From: Bacteroidota bacterium
Lineage (GTDB): Bacteria > Bacteroidota > Bacteroidia > CAILMK01 > JAAYUY01
Reading direction: 5' to 3'
DNA: 36,551 nt
Assembly (NCBI GenBank): GCA_018698135.1
Contig: JABINZ010000194.1
Span: forward strand, 1 to 36,551
Part shown: positions 26,691 to 36,202 of the stretch, one piece after another
Layout: every line of letters begins with the position of its first letter
Position numbering within the stretch: position 1 is the stretch's first letter
The notes under the pieces: generated by a model
The model's input: only the letters and a program-made list of their open reading frames with translations
Told to the model about the DNA's origin: nothing
The model's database searches: none
Made by a program: the position numbers and the translations under genes

Positions 26691-26721
26691 AAAAAAGGCT
26701 GGCTCTAAAATAGAACCAGCC
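26691..26721 (-). terminator. Terminator of the giant PKD gene
   Basis: On the minus strand GGCTGGTTCT pairs with AGAGCCAGCC (one G-U pair) around a short AT loop and is followed by six T residues. It lies 25 nt beyond the stop codon of the PKD protein gene. Confidence 0.88.
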
Positions 26722-26745
26722 TGTAAATTATTGGATAATACTGTT

Positions 26746-29700
26746 TTATCTAAGTACAGTAACTGTACCTGAACGACTCTTGAACTCTTCTCCTCTTAAT
26801 TGGTAGTTCAATGTCCAGTAATATGTACCGTCAGCACAGCGGTTTCCAGTATTAGTCATCAAGCCATTCCAATGAACTGCAGGATCGTCTGACTCAAATA
26901 CTTTTTCACCCCATCTGTTGAACACCTGTACTTCCCAGAAAGTAACACCATGTGGAACATCATAAGTACCTTGAGGATCTTTGAAATTCAACTCATCGTT
27001 AATTCCGTCACCATTAGGAGTCATGATATTCGGGAAGCCAACAGAAACCTCAAATGTATTATTGATTACAACACATGAAGTATCTAAACATCCATTCAGA
27101 CCCGGAGTTTCAATCCATGCCCACAAGCATACTGTATATTCTCCTTTATAATCTTCAAAGTCGAACACATAAACATCTTGCGACTGCGTTAGGTATGACT
27201 CATCAAATACATGACCTTCTTCAGATGTTCCAGTAACCGTCCACTCGTAATGAGTGGCACCTTTTGCACTATTTTCAAAGGTGAATACCGGCATTGAATT
27301 ATCTTTGACAGCCATTACAGCATCTGTTTTCATAACACGCACTGGCAGAGTCTTGATTTTATCAGGACAAGACAAACTATCAGGATGAATTTTAGCATCT
27401 ATTTCAACACTATAGGTTGTATCGTATGAAGTAGCACCCGTTGTAAATATATGCGTTACAGTTTCTCCTTGCTTATGTGCAGAATATCCTGATCCATCTC
27501 CAAAGTTCCAAATGATATCATCAAATTGAACTGCAGAACTATCTATATAAGTAGCTACATCTCCATCACAAAGTATTGTATCTCCGCCAAAAGCAGAAGC
27601 TTTAACAGGCATAACCACTACCGTAAAGAAGGTATCTTCCGGATTATCTGTCCTGGCATAATTTGCCGTACAATCTCCCCAATATCCTGGAGGAGGTGTT
27701 GGATAGAATACTTTTGCGGTTGCATTTAGATAAATATTATACGTACCTGGTTTTGTATACTGGATAGCAAATTGATGGTTTGCTGGTCGGCTAGTGTCTG
27801 CCATAATGGTATTATCACCTTTCACAAACTGCCAGTCAGTAGTTGAACCAGATGAATCCAGAACAACAATAAACTCTCCAGCACAAATGGTATCGTTATA
27901 ACGCTTCTCACCATTTTTGTAGAGCCAGAACTTAGGCTGTGGCCCTGTAATATTTATGTAAGCTGGTTTTGTAATCGTATCGACACAACCGTTTAGCATA
28001 CGCACAATAAGCGTAACATCATAAGTACCGTTAGTAATATAAGTATGTGTAGGTGACTTAATATATGAAATTGAGTTACTACCTCTGTCATCATGGAAAC
28101 TCCATGTCCAGTAAACAACACTATCAACCATGGTACTGTCGATAATTTGTCCGTTTTTATCAAACACATAGGTGTAGTTATTCAACGACATTGACAAATC
28201 AACGAATTTAACTGGTTGAGGAGCACAAACAGCTGGAGCATTGATTGTATCGAAATCAGCAACAACACCCATCACTTTAACATATGCTTTCCTCTCCAAA
28301 TCCTGAACACATCCATTACTGTCTGTTGTTCTCATGGTAATCGTATAATCACCGGGCTTATTAAATACCCAGAAAATAGTATCAGTTAGCATGGCATTGG
28401 TATGCCATCCTGTACCGTCTCCGAAATCCCACTCTACACGCTCAGGAACAGAAGGAGCTACAGGAACACCTGCTCTTGTACCAAACATAGCATCATTGGT
28501 TGGTGGGCCTATAATACCTGTAGTATTGGCGGGGTCAACCCAAAACTCATTTGGATTTAAATCTGGCTCAAATGGAGTTTGCTTAATCCAGAAATAACGC
28601 ACGTCATGCGTAAATATAACGGTATCTCCACCACCTTCATAACAAATTATGCGATCATCAGCTTCAAAGTTAGAATAGTGTCCTACAACTATTCGTGCAG
28701 CACTACCGGTTGCACAACCATACACATTCTTTATTGTAGATGTTACACGGTATTTACCGGGAACATTCAAACTCCAATCATGCTCAATATCAGTTAAATG
28801 TGGAGCTCCATCCTGCTTCATATAAAATGAATCAGTTAATGTAAGCTGAGGGAATGTATCAGCAGGGAAATATCCTCTTGCAGCAAAATCAGCCCACTCT
28901 ATTGGATCAACTTTTTTATTTCGTGTAAAATCAGGATACATAAAACAGCCGAAATAAATCTTTTTCTTCGGATTAAATGGATCGATAGTAAATGAATCCT
29001 TGTGACACATCCACCAAATAGTATCCGGTTTGGTTATTTGACAACTGTCTTCCATATGTACAGAAGGCCATAATGGTGAGGCTCCCGGGAAGTATTTGTC
29101 GACAAAGAATCTAAAATCAACAATACCAACCTGATCGGTATCGCCAACCGTTAATATAGATTGTAAATTAGGACATAAACGCAGATGCTGGTTAGCAGCA
29201 TAATCCATCGGCAAATATTTACCTGTGGCTGCATTATAATTATATGGATCATTAATGTTGAATGCATTATTTAAATCGGCAATATACTTATAGTCATGGT
29301 AGAAAAATGTATCAAAACAATCACCAGTTTTGATGATTAAACCGATTGTTTTCCAACCACCATCACCATATATCCACTGATTACCCATCATCATAAAGGT
29401 AATTTCATCAACCCATGCACAATCATACTGTGTGTGATTTTCTATAGATTCACGAACACCATCTCCATCAATATCCAATTTGGTTTGATCTGTACAGATA
29501 GCAGTTGGTGTACCACAACCTCCAAATCCATTTGATACTGAGTCAAAAACCATCCACCATGTTTGACGTGCACAAGATGGAAGTGTCTCATTAAAAGAAG
29601 GAACTTGAGGATAGTTAATTCCTACGCAGGGTGTACCATTCAATATAACACCTCTTCGCCCTAATGCTGGAGGAGTTGATAATTGTTTGGCCCAATCCAT

Positions 29701-31755
29701 TGCTGGAACATCCTTTTTCCACATACCAAATTTTGCTACTTCCCAACCTGCATCAGGTGCTTCCATAACAATATTAACACTGGCTTCACTCACACAATTT
29801 GTGACTGTATCTGTAACTGATAATGTTACACTATAACATCCATCTTCTTTGTAAAGATGCCAAGGCTGTATTTCTGTAGAAAACTGACAATTAATATTGG
29901 GAACAGCTTCTGTTGAGGTACAAGGATCTCCATCAGCAAAACTCCACAAATACTGCATACTATCACTAGCCCATGGATAGGACGGATTGTAGCAATTATC
30001 GAATTTCATATCAGGATTTGCACCAGCACCTGTGCGCATGGCAAAAACAGGGAAATACAATAATGGATTATCATCAATGGCATAATACCATCTATATTTT
30101 ATTGAATTATTTGTAAATCTAACGTAGTTAGGTCCAGAGCAATCATGCTTAAACAAGTCCGTGTCATGCATAGTCTGAATGTTAGCTCCTCCCGATTTAG
30201 GGAAGTAAACAGTCTCAAATTGCACACCTGGAGGAATATTATTCCCCGGATTCCACGTTTGTACAGTCGAATCAACTACAACATCATAAATATAGGTTGT
30301 ACTGATAGGAGGTGAAAGCATGGGGAAATCACGTGAAACTAAATGCGGACTTCCAGCCGGACAAGGATGTGGCTTATAATTATCTGCAAAATTTGCAGAG
30401 TCAAGCAAACTATTACAAAATGAATCAACCTGACCTATTACTAGCGGAGCTTTAGCTGATCTGATCACATAATCAACCGGATCACCAGCAGGGTTCCAAC
30501 AAGTACTTGACATGGTATGCCAGAATGAAACAGGAATAGGCTTGGCCTGTAACTGATCGTTTGCTGGGAAAGCAGGAGGAGGAGGCATGTTGATCATTGC
30601 CTGAGGTCCTAATAAAGGAATGTAGGTACAGAATGTTGTATCTCGAATACAGTTTGGCTCCCAAATTTTCAAACTAATATGATAAACACCAGGTGCTGTA
30701 TAATGGTGACATGGCTCCCATTCCTCATCATTTGTATTTAACAACATAGATGGAGGATCATCAAAGTTCCATAACCAATAATATGCATTTCTTCTGGGTT
30801 TTTGAGCGAAACACAGGCTATTATCTTGCCAGCACTGTGGAGGATTAGATTTTTGAACAATATCGAAATAGTAGAAAATATTTTTAGCTCCGGAAAACTT
30901 TTTAAGACTGTCGACACAACCATGACAGGTTCGAACAGTTAAAGTTGGATTAAAAGTTCCATCTTTTTTATAAATATGAACAAACGAAGGCTTTCCCCAA
31001 AGGGTATCGCTATCGGATGTGATGACAGTACCATCACCAAAATCCCAAGTCCACTCGGTAATACATTTTCCGACAGTATCCATGGTGTTTTTGAATGTAA
31101 CTGGTGTTTCAGGACAACCAATTTGAAAATGAGTTTCAAATTTTGGATTCAGTTTAGGAAGAACCGTAATACTGGTTGTTTTCATCGAAGTATCCCAACA
31201 ACCATTTGTATCGGTAACCGTCAAAATAATGGTATACGTTCCATCATGTGTATACGACCAACAAGGATGCTGTGTTGTACTGGAGTCTCCTGAACCAAAA
31301 TCCCATAAATAGGTTTGGATTGGTGCAGAATTAAAAACGCCCGGTAGAGAATTGTCCTTAAAGCAGAAACTATTCTGCTCAAAACACATAATTTTCTCAA
31401 GTGGAAGTATTAAATCTGCTTTCGGATTGTCATAAATAGTTATGGTTAAACAACTAGGACCACATTTGATAGATCCATCAGAATTGAAAAGGGTAACACA
31501 GGCATTAAATGTCCCAAATGTATCGTAAATATAGTTTACGGTACTGGTAGGCTGAACACTACTGTCGCCATTACCAAATGACCATTTAATAGAGCTGAAA
31601 GTTGTCGTAGCAGGAATAGAGAAATTAATTGAACTTCCCCGACATGCTGTGATTTTGTCAGCTTTTAATGTACATTGTGCTTGTGCATAACTGCCCATAA
31701 GGCTAAGCAAAAACACCCCTAGTACTAAATTCCGGATTTTCTTAAACTTTTTCAT
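26746..31755 (-). CDS. Secreted multi-PKD protein with T9SS type B sorting domain
   Basis: About 1669 residues with a classical signal peptide (KIRNLVLGVFLLSLMGSYAQAQ). At least eight PKD-like units can be counted from their cores: WSFGNGDSS, WDFGSGDSS, WDFGDGTVI, WNFDDPP, WSFADGDP, WDFGDGTGW, WSFHDDRG and WNFGDGSGY. Most end in a TV-type strand and a conserved cysteine. A central insert holds the calcium-type loop DIDGDGVRESIE. The C-terminal ~90 residues, from FPNIMTPNGDGINDELNF to SGTVTVLR, are a gliding-motility-associated (type B) CTD that directs T9SS export and surface attachment. The ATG at 31755 is chosen over a TTG at 31776. It is the third gene of a sigma factor operon, 39 nt after the membrane PKD gene. 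The role is probably adhesion or matrix; no enzyme domain is seen. Confidence 0.92.
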   Translation of the reverse strand: MKKFKKIRNLVLGVFLLSLMGSYAQAQCTLKADKITACRGSSINFSIPATTTFSSIKWSFGNGDSSVQPTSTVNYIYDTFGTFNACVTLFNSDGSIKCGPSCLTITIYDNPKADLILPLEKIMCFEQNSFCFKDNSLPGVFNSAPIQTYLWDFGSGDSSTTQHPCWSYTHDGTYTIILTVTDTNGCWDTSMKTTSITVLPKLNPKFETHFQIGCPETPVTFKNTMDTVGKCITEWTWDFGDGTVITSDSDTLWGKPSFVHIYKKDGTFNPTLTVRTCHGCVDSLKKFSGAKNIFYYFDIVQKSNPPQCWQDNSLCFAQKPRRNAYYWLWNFDDPPSMLLNTNDEEWEPCHHYTAPGVYHISLKIWEPNCIRDTTFCTYIPLLGPQAMINMPPPPAFPANDQLQAKPIPVSFWHTMSSTCWNPAGDPVDYVIRSAKAPLVIGQVDSFCNSLLDSANFADNYKPHPCPAGSPHLVSRDFPMLSPPISTTYIYDVVVDSTVQTWNPGNNIPPGVQFETVYFPKSGGANIQTMHDTDLFKHDCSGPNYVRFTNNSIKYRWYYAIDDNPLLYFPVFAMRTGAGANPDMKFDNCYNPSYPWASDSMQYLWSFADGDPCTSTEAVPNINCQFSTEIQPWHLYKEDGCYSVTLSVTDTVTNCVSEASVNIVMEAPDAGWEVAKFGMWKKDVPAMDWAKQLSTPPALGRRGVILNGTPCVGINYPQVPSFNETLPSCARQTWWMVFDSVSNGFGGCGTPTAICTDQTKLDIDGDGVRESIENHTQYDCAWVDEITFMMMGNQWIYGDGGWKTIGLIIKTGDCFDTFFYHDYKYIADLNNAFNINDPYNYNAATGKYLPMDYAANQHLRLCPNLQSILTVGDTDQVGIVDFRFFVDKYFPGASPLWPSVHMEDSCQITKPDTIWWMCHKDSFTIDPFNPKKKIYFGCFMYPDFTRNKKVDPIEWADFAARGYFPADTFPQLTLTDSFYMKQDGAPHLTDIEHDWSLNVPGKYRVTSTIKNVYGCATGSAARIVVGHYSNFEADDRIICYEGGGDTVIFTHDVRYFWIKQTPFEPDLNPNEFWVDPANTTGIIGPPTNDAMFGTRAGVPVAPSVPERVEWDFGDGTGWHTNAMLTDTIFWVFNKPGDYTITMRTTDSNGCVQDLERKAYVKVMGVVADFDTINAPAVCAPQPVKFVDLSMSLNNYTYVFDKNGQIIDSTMVDSVVYWTWSFHDDRGSNSISYIKSPTHTYITNGTYDVTLIVRMLNGCVDTITKPAYINITGPQPKFWLYKNGEKRYNDTICAGEFIVVLDSSGSTTDWQFVKGDNTIMADTSRPANHQFAIQYTKPGTYNIYLNATAKVFYPTPPPGYWGDCTANYARTDNPEDTFFTVVVMPVKASAFGGDTILCDGDVATYIDSSAVQFDDIIWNFGDGSGYSAHKQGETVTHIFTTGATSYDTTYSVEIDAKIHPDSLSCPDKIKTLPVRVMKTDAVMAVKDNSMPVFTFENSAKGATHYEWTVTGTSEEGHVFDESYLTQSQDVYVFDFEDYKGEYTVCLWAWIETPGLNGCLDTSCVVINNTFEVSVGFPNIMTPNGDGINDELNFKDPQGTYDVPHGVTFWEVQVFNRWGEKVFESDDPAVHWNGLMTNTGNRCADGTYYWTLNYQLRGEEFKSRSGTVTVLR

Positions 31756-31794
31756 AACTATCGAATTTGATTTCAAATTTATAAAATTATATCT

Positions 31795-33099
31795 TTATCT
31801 CGTTAAATAAATAGTTCCAGATTTCTTTTCCGAAACTAATTGTCCTTTATATTTATAGGTAAGCATATAGTAATAGTTACCCTCAAGACATTCTTTGCCA
31901 GTTTTCATATCTTTTCCATCCCATTTTTGATTCGGATCGGAAGCGTTAAATAATATGTTTCCACTCCTATCAATTATAGTTAATTGGAATATTTCTGTGT
32001 TTTCAAGGCTAATGTAATAATAATCGTTTTTGCCATCACCATTTGGTGTAAAGTAATTGGGTGGATAAACTTTCTCATTTTCAGTAACAATATCAATATA
32101 TTTTGATAGATCATTCGAACAGCCTTCTTTTGTTTTAACTGTTAAAATAACCATGTAATTTCCTGATGAAGTATATTGATGAACAGGTGAGTTTTCATTT
32201 GAATTATTGCCATCACCAAAAGACCAGATTGATGTACTTATATTGCTCGATAAATTTTCGAAATTTATGGTTTTTGAATCGCTATTCTCATAACTAAATT
32301 CAGCCTGAGGTAATTCAAAAACTCTTATTCTTTGCTTTCTACTTACTTCTTGTACATTATCTGTGCAAACAATCTCCACAAAATAATCGCCTGATTTATT
32401 AAATTTATGTGAAATTTCACCATTGATAATTTGCTTTTTCTGATTCGGCAGTAACACATAAACACGCATTCCCATACTACTTGCTGGTTGGTAGAATGAC
32501 ACTTTAAGAACTTCTCCAAGGCAAATAAATGTATCTGAAAAGCTGACATCAGCAACTTTAAGTAAATCTTCTTGACTGTTTGAACAAATGGTGACAGTTG
32601 GAGGGTTATCAGATACGACATCTTTTTTCTCAATGCCGCTACTAGAAGCAATAGAACTACTAGCTGTTGATGATTTTTCTATAATAGAATTATCTTTTAG
32701 TTCAGATTTTTCAGAAATAATAATTTCTTGCTTTGCCTCTTGATTATAATTCGTGCTTTGATCTTCAGGGATATCTATGGATACTTGATCTTCAATAAAT
32801 AATTCTGTTTTGTTAATCTCTTCTATTACTGCTGATTCGATATCATTTTCAGGTTTTGACGTAAGAAGGAAAATAGCCGTAGTCACAACAGCAACTCCAG
32901 CAATACCAAATCCAATAGTTTTTAACCCTACTCCTTGCATACCACTCATGCCTGTTGAAGGCTGTGGCGTACTGATGTTAGATTCAATCCTACTCCAATC
33001 AGCATCCATATTTGCTTCAGGAATATTTGGATTAAAATCTTTTAGTCCTTTATTAAAGGCTTCAAATAATGGGTCAGTATGTTGAATTTTATCTGGCAT
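31795..33099 (-). CDS. Putative anti-sigma membrane protein with PKD and T9SS sorting domains
   Basis: This 434-residue protein lacks an N-terminal signal peptide. Residues 1-58 are cytoplasmic and contain FNPNIPEANMDADWSRIES, resembling the short W-x-x-I segment of Bacteroidota anti-sigma-like proteins. A membrane segment spans about 59-80, followed by a Ser/Glu-rich linker to about 155. A beta-rich domain (155-270), one PKD domain (WSFGDGNNSNE) and a type B CTD (PNYFTPNGDGKNDYYYI to SGTIYLTR) complete it. Its ATG overlaps the sigma factor stop codon (TAATG), so the two are translationally coupled. Anti-sigma function is inferred from this coupling and topology. A T9SS sorting domain on an inner-membrane-anchored protein is odd: it cannot be a normal secreted cargo unless it is cleaved. 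Confidence 0.75.
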   Translation of the reverse strand: MPDKIQHTDPLFEAFNKGLKDFNPNIPEANMDADWSRIESNISTPQPSTGMSGMQGVGLKTIGFGIAGVAVVTTAIFLLTSKPENDIESAVIEEINKTELFIEDQVSIDIPEDQSTNYNQEAKQEIIISEKSELKDNSIIEKSSTASSSIASSSGIEKKDVVSDNPPTVTICSNSQEDLLKVADVSFSDTFICLGEVLKVSFYQPASSMGMRVYVLLPNQKKQIINGEISHKFNKSGDYFVEIVCTDNVQEVSRKQRIRVFELPQAEFSYENSDSKTINFENLSSNISTSIWSFGDGNNSNENSPVHQYTSSGNYMVILTVKTKEGCSNDLSKYIDIVTENEKVYPPNYFTPNGDGKNDYYYISLENTEIFQLTIIDRSGNILFNASDPNQKWDGKDMKTGKECLEGNYYYMLTYKYKGQLVSEKKSGTIYLTR

Positions 33100-33647
33100 T
33101 ATTTAAATAGTTCGTTTACCATGCCTTGAAGCATTTGCTTTGCTTTGAACAATTGTGATTTGGAGGTACCTTCATTAATTCCCAATTCGCGTGCAATATC
33201 CTTATGAGAATATCCTTCAATTACATACATATTAAAAATAGTACGGTAACCATTCGGTAATTTTTGAACGCATTTTAACAAATCTTCTTTTTCAAGACTT
33301 GCATAGACATCAGCTTTAGTGCTTATGTTTTCGTTATTTTCGAGATCAATTTTATCAGGCTCACTAACCGTTTTGCGATATCTGTCAATGGCCGTATTGA
33401 TCATAATGCGTTTTATCCAGCTGCTAAGGTTCCCTTCAAATTTAAACTTGGCAATATTGTTAAATACTTTGATATAGCCTTCCTGCAAAATTTCTTTTGC
33501 GTTGTCCTGATCGTTGGTATATCTTAAGCAAATGGCAAACATTAAATTATAGTATTTTTTAAACAATCTTTTTTGAGCTAATGAATCTCCTTTAAGGCAA
33601 GCTTCAATAAGTTTTTTATCTTCGTTATTGAGCTTTTTTTCATTCAT
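33099..33647 (-). CDS. ECF-type RNA polymerase sigma factor
   Basis: This 182-residue sigma-70 family factor has only regions 2 and 4. Region 2 is LMFAICLRYTNDQDNAKEIL followed by EGYIKVFNNIAKFKFEGNL and SSWIKRIMINTAIDRYRK. Region 4 is LPNGYRTIFNMYVIEGYSH then DIARELGINEGTSKSQLFKA, a helix-turn-helix for the -35 element. Length is typical of ECF factors. It is the first gene of the operon with the coupled membrane PKD protein and the giant PKD protein, and may autoregulate it. The start codon is ATG at 33647. Just upstream lies the 262-bp inverted-repeat element, so promoter elements of this operon are probably near or within it. Confidence 0.95.
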   Translation of the reverse strand: MNEKKLNNEDKKLIEACLKGDSLAQKRLFKKYYNLMFAICLRYTNDQDNAKEILQEGYIKVFNNIAKFKFEGNLSSWIKRIMINTAIDRYRKTVSEPDKIDLENNENISTKADVYASLEKEDLLKCVQKLPNGYRTIFNMYVIEGYSHKDIARELGINEGTSKSQLFKAKQMLQGMVNELFK

Positions 33648-33740
33648 TTTCCCTTTCTGTTTTTGTAGACGTAGACTTGATTAAGTAAGTTGCCTGCGCA
33701 GTTGCTTTTTTTTGATATTATTTTCAGTTCTAAAGATACA

Positions 33741-34002
33741 AACCTGAGTTCGGGATAAGAAATAAATAACAGAGAGCAAATAGGGGATAAGATTTGAAGA
33801 AGAAATTTTGAAGTTATAACTGGTTATTTCAAGAGATTTCTTTTTTAAAGTTTGTGCTCTATTTGCTCTCCCTTTGGGCTTCATGAGGTTTCCCATACAC
33901 ATTCCCAGATTTTATTGAATTATCACGATAGTCCTGAAAAATCTGGATTGTCTATGAAAAACCTCAAGAAGCTGTAAATATTTGTTATCCCGAACTCAGG
34001 TT
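33741..34002. mobile_element. 262-bp structured MITE-like element with 18-bp TIRs
   Basis: Perfect terminal inverted repeats AACCTGAGTTCGGGATAA (33741-33758) and its reverse complement (33985-34002) bound a 262-bp non-coding segment. ACA flanks both ends directly (33738-33740 and 34003-34005), a possible 3-bp target duplication. Inside are two imperfect hairpins. The first pairs GAGAGCAAATAG (33772-33783) with CTATTTGCTCTC (33859-33870) and continues inward. The second pairs CTTCATGAGGTTT (33879-33891) with AAACCTCAAGAAG (33959-33971) and CCAGATTTT (33905-33913) with AAAATCTGG (33938-33946). With the TIRs paired the whole folds as a three-stem junction. No transposase is present. It lies 94 nt upstream of the sigma factor start, in the gap that ends at the EF-G2 terminator. 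Confidence 0.75.
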
Positions 34003-34011
34003 ACAAGCTTA

Positions 34012-34047
34012 ACTAAAACAAAAAACCCACTTAAATAAGTGGGTTTT
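34012..34047 (-). terminator. Terminator of the EF-G paralogue gene
   Basis: AAAACCCACTTA (34022-34033) pairs with TAAGTGGGTTTT (34036-34047). On the minus strand a T-rich run follows. It starts 20 nt after the stop codon of the EF-G gene and just before the MITE-like element. Confidence 0.88.
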
Positions 34048-34066
34048 CAAATGTATTAATGAAAAT

Positions 34067-36202
34067 TTAATCTTCTTCATTTTTACTTTCTTCGTACTCT
34101 TTCAATAATCTATCCTGAACATCTGGTGGTACTTGCTGATATTCTACATATTTCATTGAGTAAGAAGCTCTTCCATTTGTAATGGAGCTTAAAGTTGTTG
34201 AATATTTATTCATATCGGCTAATGGCACATTAGCTTTAACCTTCTGATATATACCTTCCCCTTCCATACCCAGGATCATTCCTCTTCGTCCCTGAATATC
34301 AGTAATAACATCTCCCATTCTTTCTTCAGGTACAACAACTTCTACCAAATAAATAGGTTCAAGTAATTTGGGTCCAGCATTTTTGAATCCTCTTGCAAAC
34401 GCATGTTTCCCTGCTAATTTAAATGAAATTTCATTTGAATCGACAGGATGCATCTTTCCGTCATAGGCCGTTACACGAATATCACGAGCATAAGATCCTG
34501 TTAACGGACCTTCTTCCATTTTCTCCATGATACCTTTCAGAACAGCTGGTAAATAACGAGTGTCGATTACTCCACCAACAATACCATTGATAAAAACAAG
34601 CTTTCCACCCCAAGGTAAAGTAATTTCTTCTTTTCCACGAACGTTATACTTATCTTTAGGTGGATCAGGCATACCTTCTACAAATGGTTCAATCATTAGG
34701 TATACTTCACCAAATTGTCCAGATCCTCCTGATTGTTTTTTATGTTTATAGTCAGATAGTGTTTGCTTTGTGATTGTTTCACGATAGGAAATTCTTGGAG
34801 GGAAAAACTCCACAGGAATTTTTTGTTCTGTTTCCAAATGCCATTTGGCAATATTAATGTGCAATTCCCCTTGACCATGAATCAACATTTGTTTCAATTC
34901 TTTCGAATACTCAAATATAATGGTTGGGTCAGCTACATTCATTTTCAAAAGATAAGCAGCTAGTTTTTCATCATCTGAATTATTAATTGCTTTAACTGCT
35001 GTTCTGATTTTTGGTTCTGGAAAATCAATAGGTGAAGCAACAACTGATGATCCTTTTGCATTGAGGGTATTGTTTGTTTTGGTATTCTTCATTTTAATGG
35101 TAGCAAACAAATCACCGGCACAAGCTTTATTTACCTTTTCTCTTTTCTTACCAGCTATCATATATAACTGACTGATTCTTTCTTTAGAACCTGTCTGTAC
35201 ATTTTCAAAATCAACTCCTTCTGTTACATCTCCGGTTACTACCTTCATAAAGGAAACCTCACCTAAATGCTCTTCAAAAGCTGTTTTATAAACAAATACA
35301 GATGCAGGTTTTGAACCTTCACATACGATATCTTCACCCTGATCAGATTTCATTGGATTCTCATCTGGGGATGGAATAACATTAATGATGAATTCCATTA
35401 AACGAGTAATTCCAATGTGGTTTTTGGCTGAAGTACAAAATACAGGGAAAATGTCACGATTTATCAGTCCAAGTTTAATACCTGACCTCATTTCATCTTC
35501 ATTGAGTGTTCCTTTGTCGAAAAACAATTCCATGAGGGCATCGTCATTCTCTGCTGCAGCTTCAACTAATGCATTTTGCAATTCTTCAGCTTTTTCTTTT
35601 TCTTCAGATGGGATATCCAGAATCTCAGGTTTTCCTCCACCAACAGGATATTTATACAATTTCATTGTAATAACATCAATAATAGAGTCGAATCCTTTTC
35701 CAGCATTGTAAGGGTATTGTACTACAATAACTTTATTTCCGAAAAAGTCTTTAGCCTCTTTCACCAAATCATCGAACTCAGCTTTTTCATGATCCAGATG
35801 ATTTGCGACCAATACAATAGGTTGTTTATATTTTGCTGCGTGTCTCCACGAAAGTTCTGTACCGACCTCAATACCATTGTTGGTATTCATGAGTAGCAAA
35901 CTCACATCTGCAACTTTCATCGAAGCAATGGCTTCACCAACAAAATCATCAAAACCCGGATTATCAATAAAATTAATTTTGCGATCATTGTATTCTGCAA
36001 ATAAAACTGTTGAATAAACAGAGTTTAATCTTTCATGCTCAATAGGCTTGTAATCGGATGTTGTATTCTTACTTTCAACATTGCCTTTTCTGTCAATCAC
36101 GCCACCTTCGAAGAGCATACACTCAGCTAAGGTCGTTTTGCCCGAACCTGGTCCACCCATAAGTGAAACATTCCTAATCTCTTTGGTCTGATAAACTCTC
36201 AT
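34067..36202 (-). CDS. fusA2: EF-G paralogue (EF-G2 type), catalytic His replaced
   Basis: This 711-residue protein has all five EF-G domains. The P-loop is GGPGSGKTT (G16-T24). The switch I threonine motif RGIT of canonical EF-G is replaced by RLNSVYST. The G3 motif DTPGH is DNPGF, so the catalytic histidine is F84. G4 is NHLD (134-137) instead of NKxD. Domain IV is well kept (KKQSGGSGQFGEVYLMIEPF, HPVDSNEISFKLAGKHAFARG), as is domain V (RRGMILGMEGEG). This pattern fits the second EF-G of Bacteroides, reported to promote translocation without GTP hydrolysis during carbon starvation. GTPase loss here is inferred from the residues. It is monocistronic with its own terminator. Confidence 0.92.
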   Translation of the reverse strand: MRVYQTKEIRNVSLMGGPGSGKTTLAECMLFEGGVIDRKGNVESKNTTSDYKPIEHERLNSVYSTVLFAEYNDRKINFIDNPGFDDFVGEAIASMKVADVSLLLMNTNNGIEVGTELSWRHAAKYKQPIVLVANHLDHEKAEFDDLVKEAKDFFGNKVIVVQYPYNAGKGFDSIIDVITMKLYKYPVGGGKPEILDIPSEEKEKAEELQNALVEAAAENDDALMELFFDKGTLNEDEMRSGIKLGLINRDIFPVFCTSAKNHIGITRLMEFIINVIPSPDENPMKSDQGEDIVCEGSKPASVFVYKTAFEEHLGEVSFMKVVTGDVTEGVDFENVQTGSKERISQLYMIAGKKREKVNKACAGDLFATIKMKNTKTNNTLNAKGSSVVASPIDFPEPKIRTAVKAINNSDDEKLAAYLLKMNVADPTIIFEYSKELKQMLIHGQGELHINIAKWHLETEQKIPVEFFPPRISYRETITKQTLSDYKHKKQSGGSGQFGEVYLMIEPFVEGMPDPPKDKYNVRGKEEITLPWGGKLVFINGIVGGVIDTRYLPAVLKGIMEKMEEGPLTGSYARDIRVTAYDGKMHPVDSNEISFKLAGKHAFARGFKNAGPKLLEPIYLVEVVVPEERMGDVITDIQGRRGMILGMEGEGIYQKVKANVPLADMNKYSTTLSSITNGRASYSMKYVEYQQVPPDVQDRLLKEYEESKNEED

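Follow-up and report, generated by a model that had tools for sequence, protein, structure and literature searches.

A predicted anti-sigma factor with a T9SS type B domain in an ECF sigma factor operon of Bacteroidota

Described systems with related parts

The closest described precedent for the operon analysed here is the Dma architecture, in which an anti-sigma domain, a helix, a disordered tether and a β-barrel are joined in one protein and the gene adjoins that of an ECF21 sigma factor (PMC13088901). Dma1 and Dma2 of B. thetaiotaomicron repress their cognate ECF sigma factors, as shown by deletion (PMC13088901), and a similar Dma-type pair is present in Phocaeicola (PMC9308784). The window, i.e., the whole stretch of 36,551 nucleotides that we analysed from a Bacteroidota bacterium (contig JABINZ010000194.1), carries on its minus strand a three-gene unit composed of an ECF sigma factor, a membrane protein of 434 aa and a giant multi-PKD protein of 1669 aa. 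The 434-aa protein resembles Dma in its adjacent ECF gene, its homologous cytosolic segment, its one helix, its long disordered tether and a C-terminal module presumably directed to the outer membrane. By contrast, this C-terminus consists of Ig/PKD domains and a type B C-terminal domain (CTD) of the type IX secretion system (T9SS) whereas that of Dma is a β-barrel, and the third gene encodes a giant type B surface protein where Dma loci have a NigD-like lipoprotein. Because it lacks the defining β-barrel, we set the 434-aa protein beside the Dma class, not in it.

In its C-terminal half the protein is similar to T9SS type B cargo (SprB, PG1035; TIGR04131), with which it shares a type B CTD with a conserved core and preceding PKD/Ig domains. 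Unlike this cargo, it has no signal peptide and possesses a long cytosolic N-terminus and a permanent membrane anchor. In addition, a porP/sprF-like gene adjoins sprB but is absent from the window operon, the PorP_SprF matches of this genome being located on other contigs. In P. gingivalis and F. johnsoniae, PorP-like barrels serve as surface anchors to which type B CTD proteins bind (PMC9143113). The original prediction drew a parallel with the PorXY-SigP/PorA pathway of Porphyromonas gingivalis, where T9SS control likewise links an ECF sigma factor with a CTD protein (PMC7712824, PMC4800418). This likeness stands, but only as a distant one with Dma as the closer precedent: PorX, a response regulator, activates SigP, which controls T9SS components (PMC7712824, PMC4800418), whereas here the exact promoter matches lead back to the operon, and PorA has a signal sequence, acts upstream of PorXY and is not reported to be paired with a sigma gene (PMC7712824). 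FlgM of flagellar type III secretion is a conceptual relative, being an anti-sigma factor that carries a signal for the very machine that secretes the products under its control, although it is soluble and exported whole and the proteins are unrelated. RsgI proteins of clostridia also combine an anti-sigma segment, a membrane helix and extracytoplasmic carbohydrate- or Ig-type domains, but they belong to Gram-positive bacteria, have unrelated domains and involve neither an outer membrane nor a T9SS. We found no description of an anti-sigma factor bearing a T9SS sorting domain or a PorP/SprF barrel in the searchable literature, outside which lies the founding Dma paper (PNAS 2024), which may mention such variants.

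Operon structure and domain content

Pfam and TIGR02937 matches identify the first gene as an ECF sigma factor (Sigma70_r2, 4.8e-15; Sigma70_r4_2, 2.8e-17; TIGR02937, 2.1e-28; Table 1), which shares 59–65% identity with the sigma factor of the same operon in genomes G003 and G002 and 39–42% with those of Dma1-like loci, its class being given here as ECF. Its junction with the partner gene reads AAATAATGCC, the last A of the stop codon TAA doubling as the first base of the next ATG (TAATG).

The first 58 residues of the 434-aa protein are hydrophilic. There is no signal peptide and no hydrophobic N-terminus, the highest 12-residue mean within the first 30 residues being −0.08. The W-x-x-I segment corresponds to W35-S-R-I38, with W35 found in 11 of 11 first homologues and in >90% of the 46 related partners described below. 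The positive-inside bias around the membrane helix is weak (67 versus 51 K/R). An AlphaFold model consists of two short helices, the membrane helix and a disordered tether (pLDDT < 50 over residues 37–185), followed by confident Ig, PKD and CTD sandwiches. The PKD_4 match is significant at 9e-16, and the type B T9SS domain can be considered real since both of its models score above their curated cut-offs (CHU_C over residues 347–432, 5.5e-17 and 62.1 bits against a cut-off of 27; TIGR04131, 2.5e-14 and 53.2 bits against 35). No β-barrel match was detected in this protein, which has PKD and CHU_C instead. A fold search against the PDB retrieved mostly generic Ig-like matches, with PorU among those listed and GhpA, a giant grappling-hook protein of the bacterium Aureispira, as the best one.

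The third gene most likely starts at the ATG at 31755, 39 nt past the stop codon of the 434-aa protein, and we rejected the TTG at 31776 taken as start by the ORF tool. Its product possesses a signal peptide, at least eight PKD stretches and a CHU_C domain (residues 1574–1662, 4e-16), and its TIGR04131 match fell just under the curated cut-off in one search and over it in another. Full-length orthologues are encoded at the same position in genomes G003 (60%), G002 (54%) and G006 (35%). These data confirm the earlier observation of a sigma/CTD-protein operon in all its elements, namely the overlapping ECF gene, the signal-less single-pass protein with W-x-x-I, PKD and type B CTD (hydropathy, PKD_4, CHU_C and TIGR04131) and, after it, the secreted multi-PKD protein with a type B CTD of its own.

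Table 1. Features of the sigma factor operon and its boundaries (window coordinates)
Feature	Coordinates (strand)	Size or residues	Basis or details
Terminator-like hairpin of upstream EF-G-like gene	34021..34048 (-)		Parts the EF-G-like gene from the operon
Candidate ECF-type promoter	33668..33694 (-)		-35 GGCAAC, 17-nt spacer, -10 CGTC; ~20 nt before sigma start codon
ECF sigma factor	33099..33647 (-)	182 aa	Pfam Sigma70_r2/r4_2 and TIGR02937
Predicted anti-sigma factor	31795..33099 (-)	434 aa	Start overlaps sigma stop
Predicted cytosolic anti-sigma domain	32926..33099 (-)	Residues 1-58	Two predicted helices (10-22 and 31-42), conserved W35
Single membrane segment	32863..32919 (-)	Residues 61-79	Hydropathy; only hydrophobic segment
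Disordered tether	32545..32859 (-)	Residues 81-185 (~105)	Rich in Ser/Glu/Ile/Asp/Lys
Ig-like and PKD domain	32089..32532 (-)	Residues 190-337	PKD_4 at 281-332
T9SS type B CTD of anti-sigma	31801..32061 (-)	Residues 347-433	CHU_C and TIGR04131
Multi-PKD surface protein, predicted secreted	26746..31755 (-)	1669 aa	Third operon gene
Type B CTD of giant protein	26779..27039 (-)		TIGR04131, 9.3e-10, 40.3 bits, over cut-off
Terminator-like hairpin 3' of operon	26696..26722 (-)		12 pairs and T run

Directly upstream of the operon lies a gene for an EF-G-like translational GTPase (711 aa, 34067-36202), a neighbour that is kept in G002 and G003, whereas G004, G006, G007 and G011 have a biotin carboxylase-like gene in its place. 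A gene-free, MITE-like element of 262 bp (33741-34002) is located just upstream of the candidate sigma promoter. It has terminal inverted repeats of 24 nt that are 96% complementary (AACCTGAGTTCGGGATAAGAAATA), and its repeat end is present in ~24 copies genome-wide (control 1), with several facing pairs 260–320 bp apart.

The sequence GGCAAC-N17-CGTC looks like the sigma factor's own promoter. The looser pattern GCAAC-N14..18-CGT precedes 22 of the 46 sigma genes whose partner belongs to the CTD class (0.4 expected in shuffles) and 10 of the 66 others (0.3 expected), and it does not occur on the reverse strand of the same sigma-upstream regions. In G004 the promoter consensus was found once, before this sigma gene. 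The proposal that the sigma factor governs surface-protein expression more generally received no support from the promoter matches. Exact GGCAAC-N15..18-CGTC matches number five in the genome, as in the reversed control, and none of them precedes a T9SS component gene, with the proviso that this consensus may not be the sigma factor's true one. Since such matches are scarce and no commoner than in the control, we claim no broader regulon and retain the operon with its giant protein as the only supported target. Apart from the match at the operon, one (contig C171) is situated 45 nt before the gene of a secreted protein with a T9SS type A-like C-terminus, and two more fall within a gene or have no clear gene following them. 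Another (GGCAACC...GCGTC, contig C146:958-984, L321) points at the 3' end of a convergently oriented gene and has no clear forward gene behind it; it could correspond to an antisense or small RNA or to chance.

Recurrence of the design and exchange of its C-terminal module

The distribution of this architecture was assessed in 112 sigma/partner pairs, comprising the first homologues, which share the gene order and come from the same family, order and class, and 100 further sigma loci selected by sigma similarity alone, the downstream partner of which was inspected. The succession of anti-sigma segment, helix, linker and type B CTD is found in 46 of these 112 pairs, distributed over 38 genomes and 21 families, and in 34 of the 99 pairs picked by sigma similarity alone and not through the anti-sigma. 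With 46 pairs having it, the design is not a product of chance. The search across Bacteroidota that the original prediction had called for thus shows that the pairing with a sigma factor is not unique to this genome. Homologues with a cleavable export signal, which that prediction had counted against itself, were not seen among those inspected. Crocinitomix catalasitica ATCC 23190 (L251) and Bacteroidetes bacterium UKL13-3 (L247) are among the named carriers, and several genomes have two pairs of this type. Pfam searches on the 46 partners retrieved CHU_C in 45 and PKD_4 in 28, and some members have a short span from helix to CTD (127–150 residues, Ig included). One locus (L071:2755-5869) contains tandem ECF/anti-sigma pairs, the first with a type B CTD and the second short and without an outer-membrane module.

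A profile of the cytosolic part alone of the CTD-class proteins matched 45 of the 66 non-CTD partners (of β-barrel, PorP and short types) and none of the background ORFs of the 112-pair sample, so that these partner types have one anti-sigma domain in common. The matches extend to Dma1-like loci (L287, 4e-8; L292, 1e-10; L308, 6e-8), which in Tannerella/Parabacteroides have a lipoprotein gene next to them, like dma1 and nigD1. Given this homology to Dma-like anti-sigmas and the constant pairing with ECF genes, the 434-aa protein very probably acts as anti-sigma factor to the neighbouring sigma factor, as had been supposed. Among the 63 non-CTD partners scanned for C-terminal domains, 27 end in OMP_b-brl_2 and four in PorP_SprF (L121, L127, L183 and L193), the others being short or unmatched. 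In two of these PorP_SprF-ended anti-sigmas (L183:1352-3771 and L193:1250-3789) the match passes its cut-off, with up to 71 bits, and the gene is followed, after a one-base overlap, by that of a protein of ~215 aa combining a lipoprotein-type signal with a type B CTD. This layout is the mirror image of the arrangement in the window. Judging from these domain matches, the C-terminal part of the family is an exchangeable module, which can be a β-barrel, a PorP/SprF barrel or a type B CTD. The best reading of the 434-aa protein is that of an anti-sigma factor on a Dma chassis whose β-barrel has been replaced by a T9SS type B domain.

When mapped on the sigma tree, the CTD label requires nine changes, compared with 35.9 in shuffles, and the starred branches force at least three changes. 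We therefore rejected a single origin of the CTD type and consider the CTD module to be old, to track the sigma lineage and to have been swapped more than once; swaps between partners took place, in whichever direction. The third gene also differs with the class of the partner: among the resolved loci it encodes a type B CTD in 21 of 36 when the partner is of the CTD class and in 0 of 38 when it is not (Fisher p ~4e-9, without correction for relatedness).

Possible roles of the type B domain

The module exchange, the known binding of type B proteins by PorP, the L183 and L193 loci, the third-gene contrast and the presence in this genome of SprA (2497 bits) and 11 PorP_SprF stretches make a T9SS or outer-membrane role for the anti-sigma CTD likely, and T9SS coupling of the anti-sigma plausible. 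On balance, the whole is probably best explained by an anti-sigma on the Dma chassis whose type B docking gates the sigma factor and the operon of the giant protein. The cytosolic segment would bind the adjacent ECF sigma factor, the single helix would anchor the protein and the tether would span the periplasm. Given its length, the tether should bridge the distance to the outer membrane, where the type B domain, like type B cargo, is expected to dock on components of the T9SS or of PorP/SprF type. Its docked or undocked state would be relayed across the envelope and the sigma factor held or released; once released, it would activate its own promoter and, with it, the operon that includes the giant type B surface protein. 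Docking could represent the "off" state, as in Dma, with disturbance freeing the sigma factor, or the "on" state in an FlgM-like manner, engagement by a free translocon freeing it. We infer the sigma binding, the docking, the reach of the tether and the direction of signalling with its "on" state. More tentatively, at less than even chances, the anti-sigma may itself be a secretion-coupled client of the T9SS, so that a translocon or PorP-like barrel engaging its type B domain would set both sigma activity and the supply of giant cargo; the PorP-ended anti-sigmas and their type B CTD lipoproteins would be the mirror version.

The original prediction was more specific, proposing a CTD that gauges how far the T9SS is occupied or that the machine cleaves. 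In such an FlgM-like gauge, a free translocon would engage and pull or process the anti-sigma CTD, releasing the sigma factor for cargo synthesis, and a saturated machine would displace the anti-sigma, so that the sigma factor is held. Anti-sigma and cargo do share the class of export signal and the operon, giving a natural negative feedback, and most members conserve the core residues of the CTD. SprA is present in 37 of the 38 design-carrying genomes, but 95 of 100 sampled genomes have it anyway, so this co-occurrence does not discriminate and was rejected as evidence. Likewise, we rejected cognate matching of bait and cargo CTDs: the mean identity of the anti-sigma CTD is 0.33 with that of its own neighbour versus 0.29 with others, and within this genome the CTD of the giant protein comes no higher than 8th of 24 in likeness to the anti-sigma CTD. 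A few members (L109, L170, L244, L248 and L255, most clearly L109 and L170) have a lost or degenerate N-G-D-G-x-N-D core, which indicates that export competence is not needed in all of them. The count of 25 of 46 with this core comes from a too strict expression, most of the others keeping by eye a P-N-x-D-G-x-N-D-like core. Moreover, a substrate tethered in the inner membrane might jam the T9SS pore, and we know of no precedent for a type IX substrate anchored in this way. With such weak likeness to the neighbouring cargo and these core-less relatives, the occupancy gauge appears somewhat unlikely. Four of the core-less proteins (L244:8550-9845, L248:6754-8049, L255:8558-9859 and L170:2656-3789) keep the W-D/T-G and terminal patterns and may represent a lineage that has abandoned the T9SS signal.

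The CTD could alternatively be a plain periplasmic Ig-like module without any T9SS role, the anti-sigma being subject to ordinary regulated proteolysis. The sandwich fold of type B CTDs is Ig-like, many anti-sigmas function with any periplasmic domain and the degenerate motif of several members would fit such a module. We nevertheless judge it unlikely, as it predicts neither the exchange of three outer-membrane or T9SS modules on one chassis nor the link with type B third genes (21/36 versus 0/38), and the core motif is kept in most members. An RsgI-like surface sensor, whose PKD/CTD part is carried to the surface by the T9SS and where an external ligand frees the sigma factor, seems quite doubtful. 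The tether could reach, the PKD/Ig domains precede the CTD as in surface adhesins and type B proteins are surface-anchored (PMC9143113); yet the PKD model matches only ~60% of the partners (28/46), in a region too poorly conserved for a shared ligand site, and the protein would have to cross both membranes through the T9SS. Finally, an ordinary type B cargo lying by chance beside a sigma gene, with the hydrophobic segment as a late signal anchor, is hardly credible despite the bona fide type B CTD, given the repetition of this gene order at 46 loci, the homologous cytosolic segment, absent from every other ORF sampled, and the lack of a signal peptide.

The docking anti-sigma that we favour changes the standing of the Dma class from a β-barrel curiosity to a general chassis, made of an anti-sigma domain, a helix, a tether and an exchangeable outer-membrane module, which may report on different outer-membrane machines. 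The widespread CTD anti-sigma, together with its PorP mirror version, makes it directly testable how Bacteroidota match the output of giant surface proteins to T9SS capacity. The recurrence of this design in many Bacteroidota suggests a possible coupling, in these bacteria, between the synthesis of such proteins and the state of the outer membrane or of the export machine.
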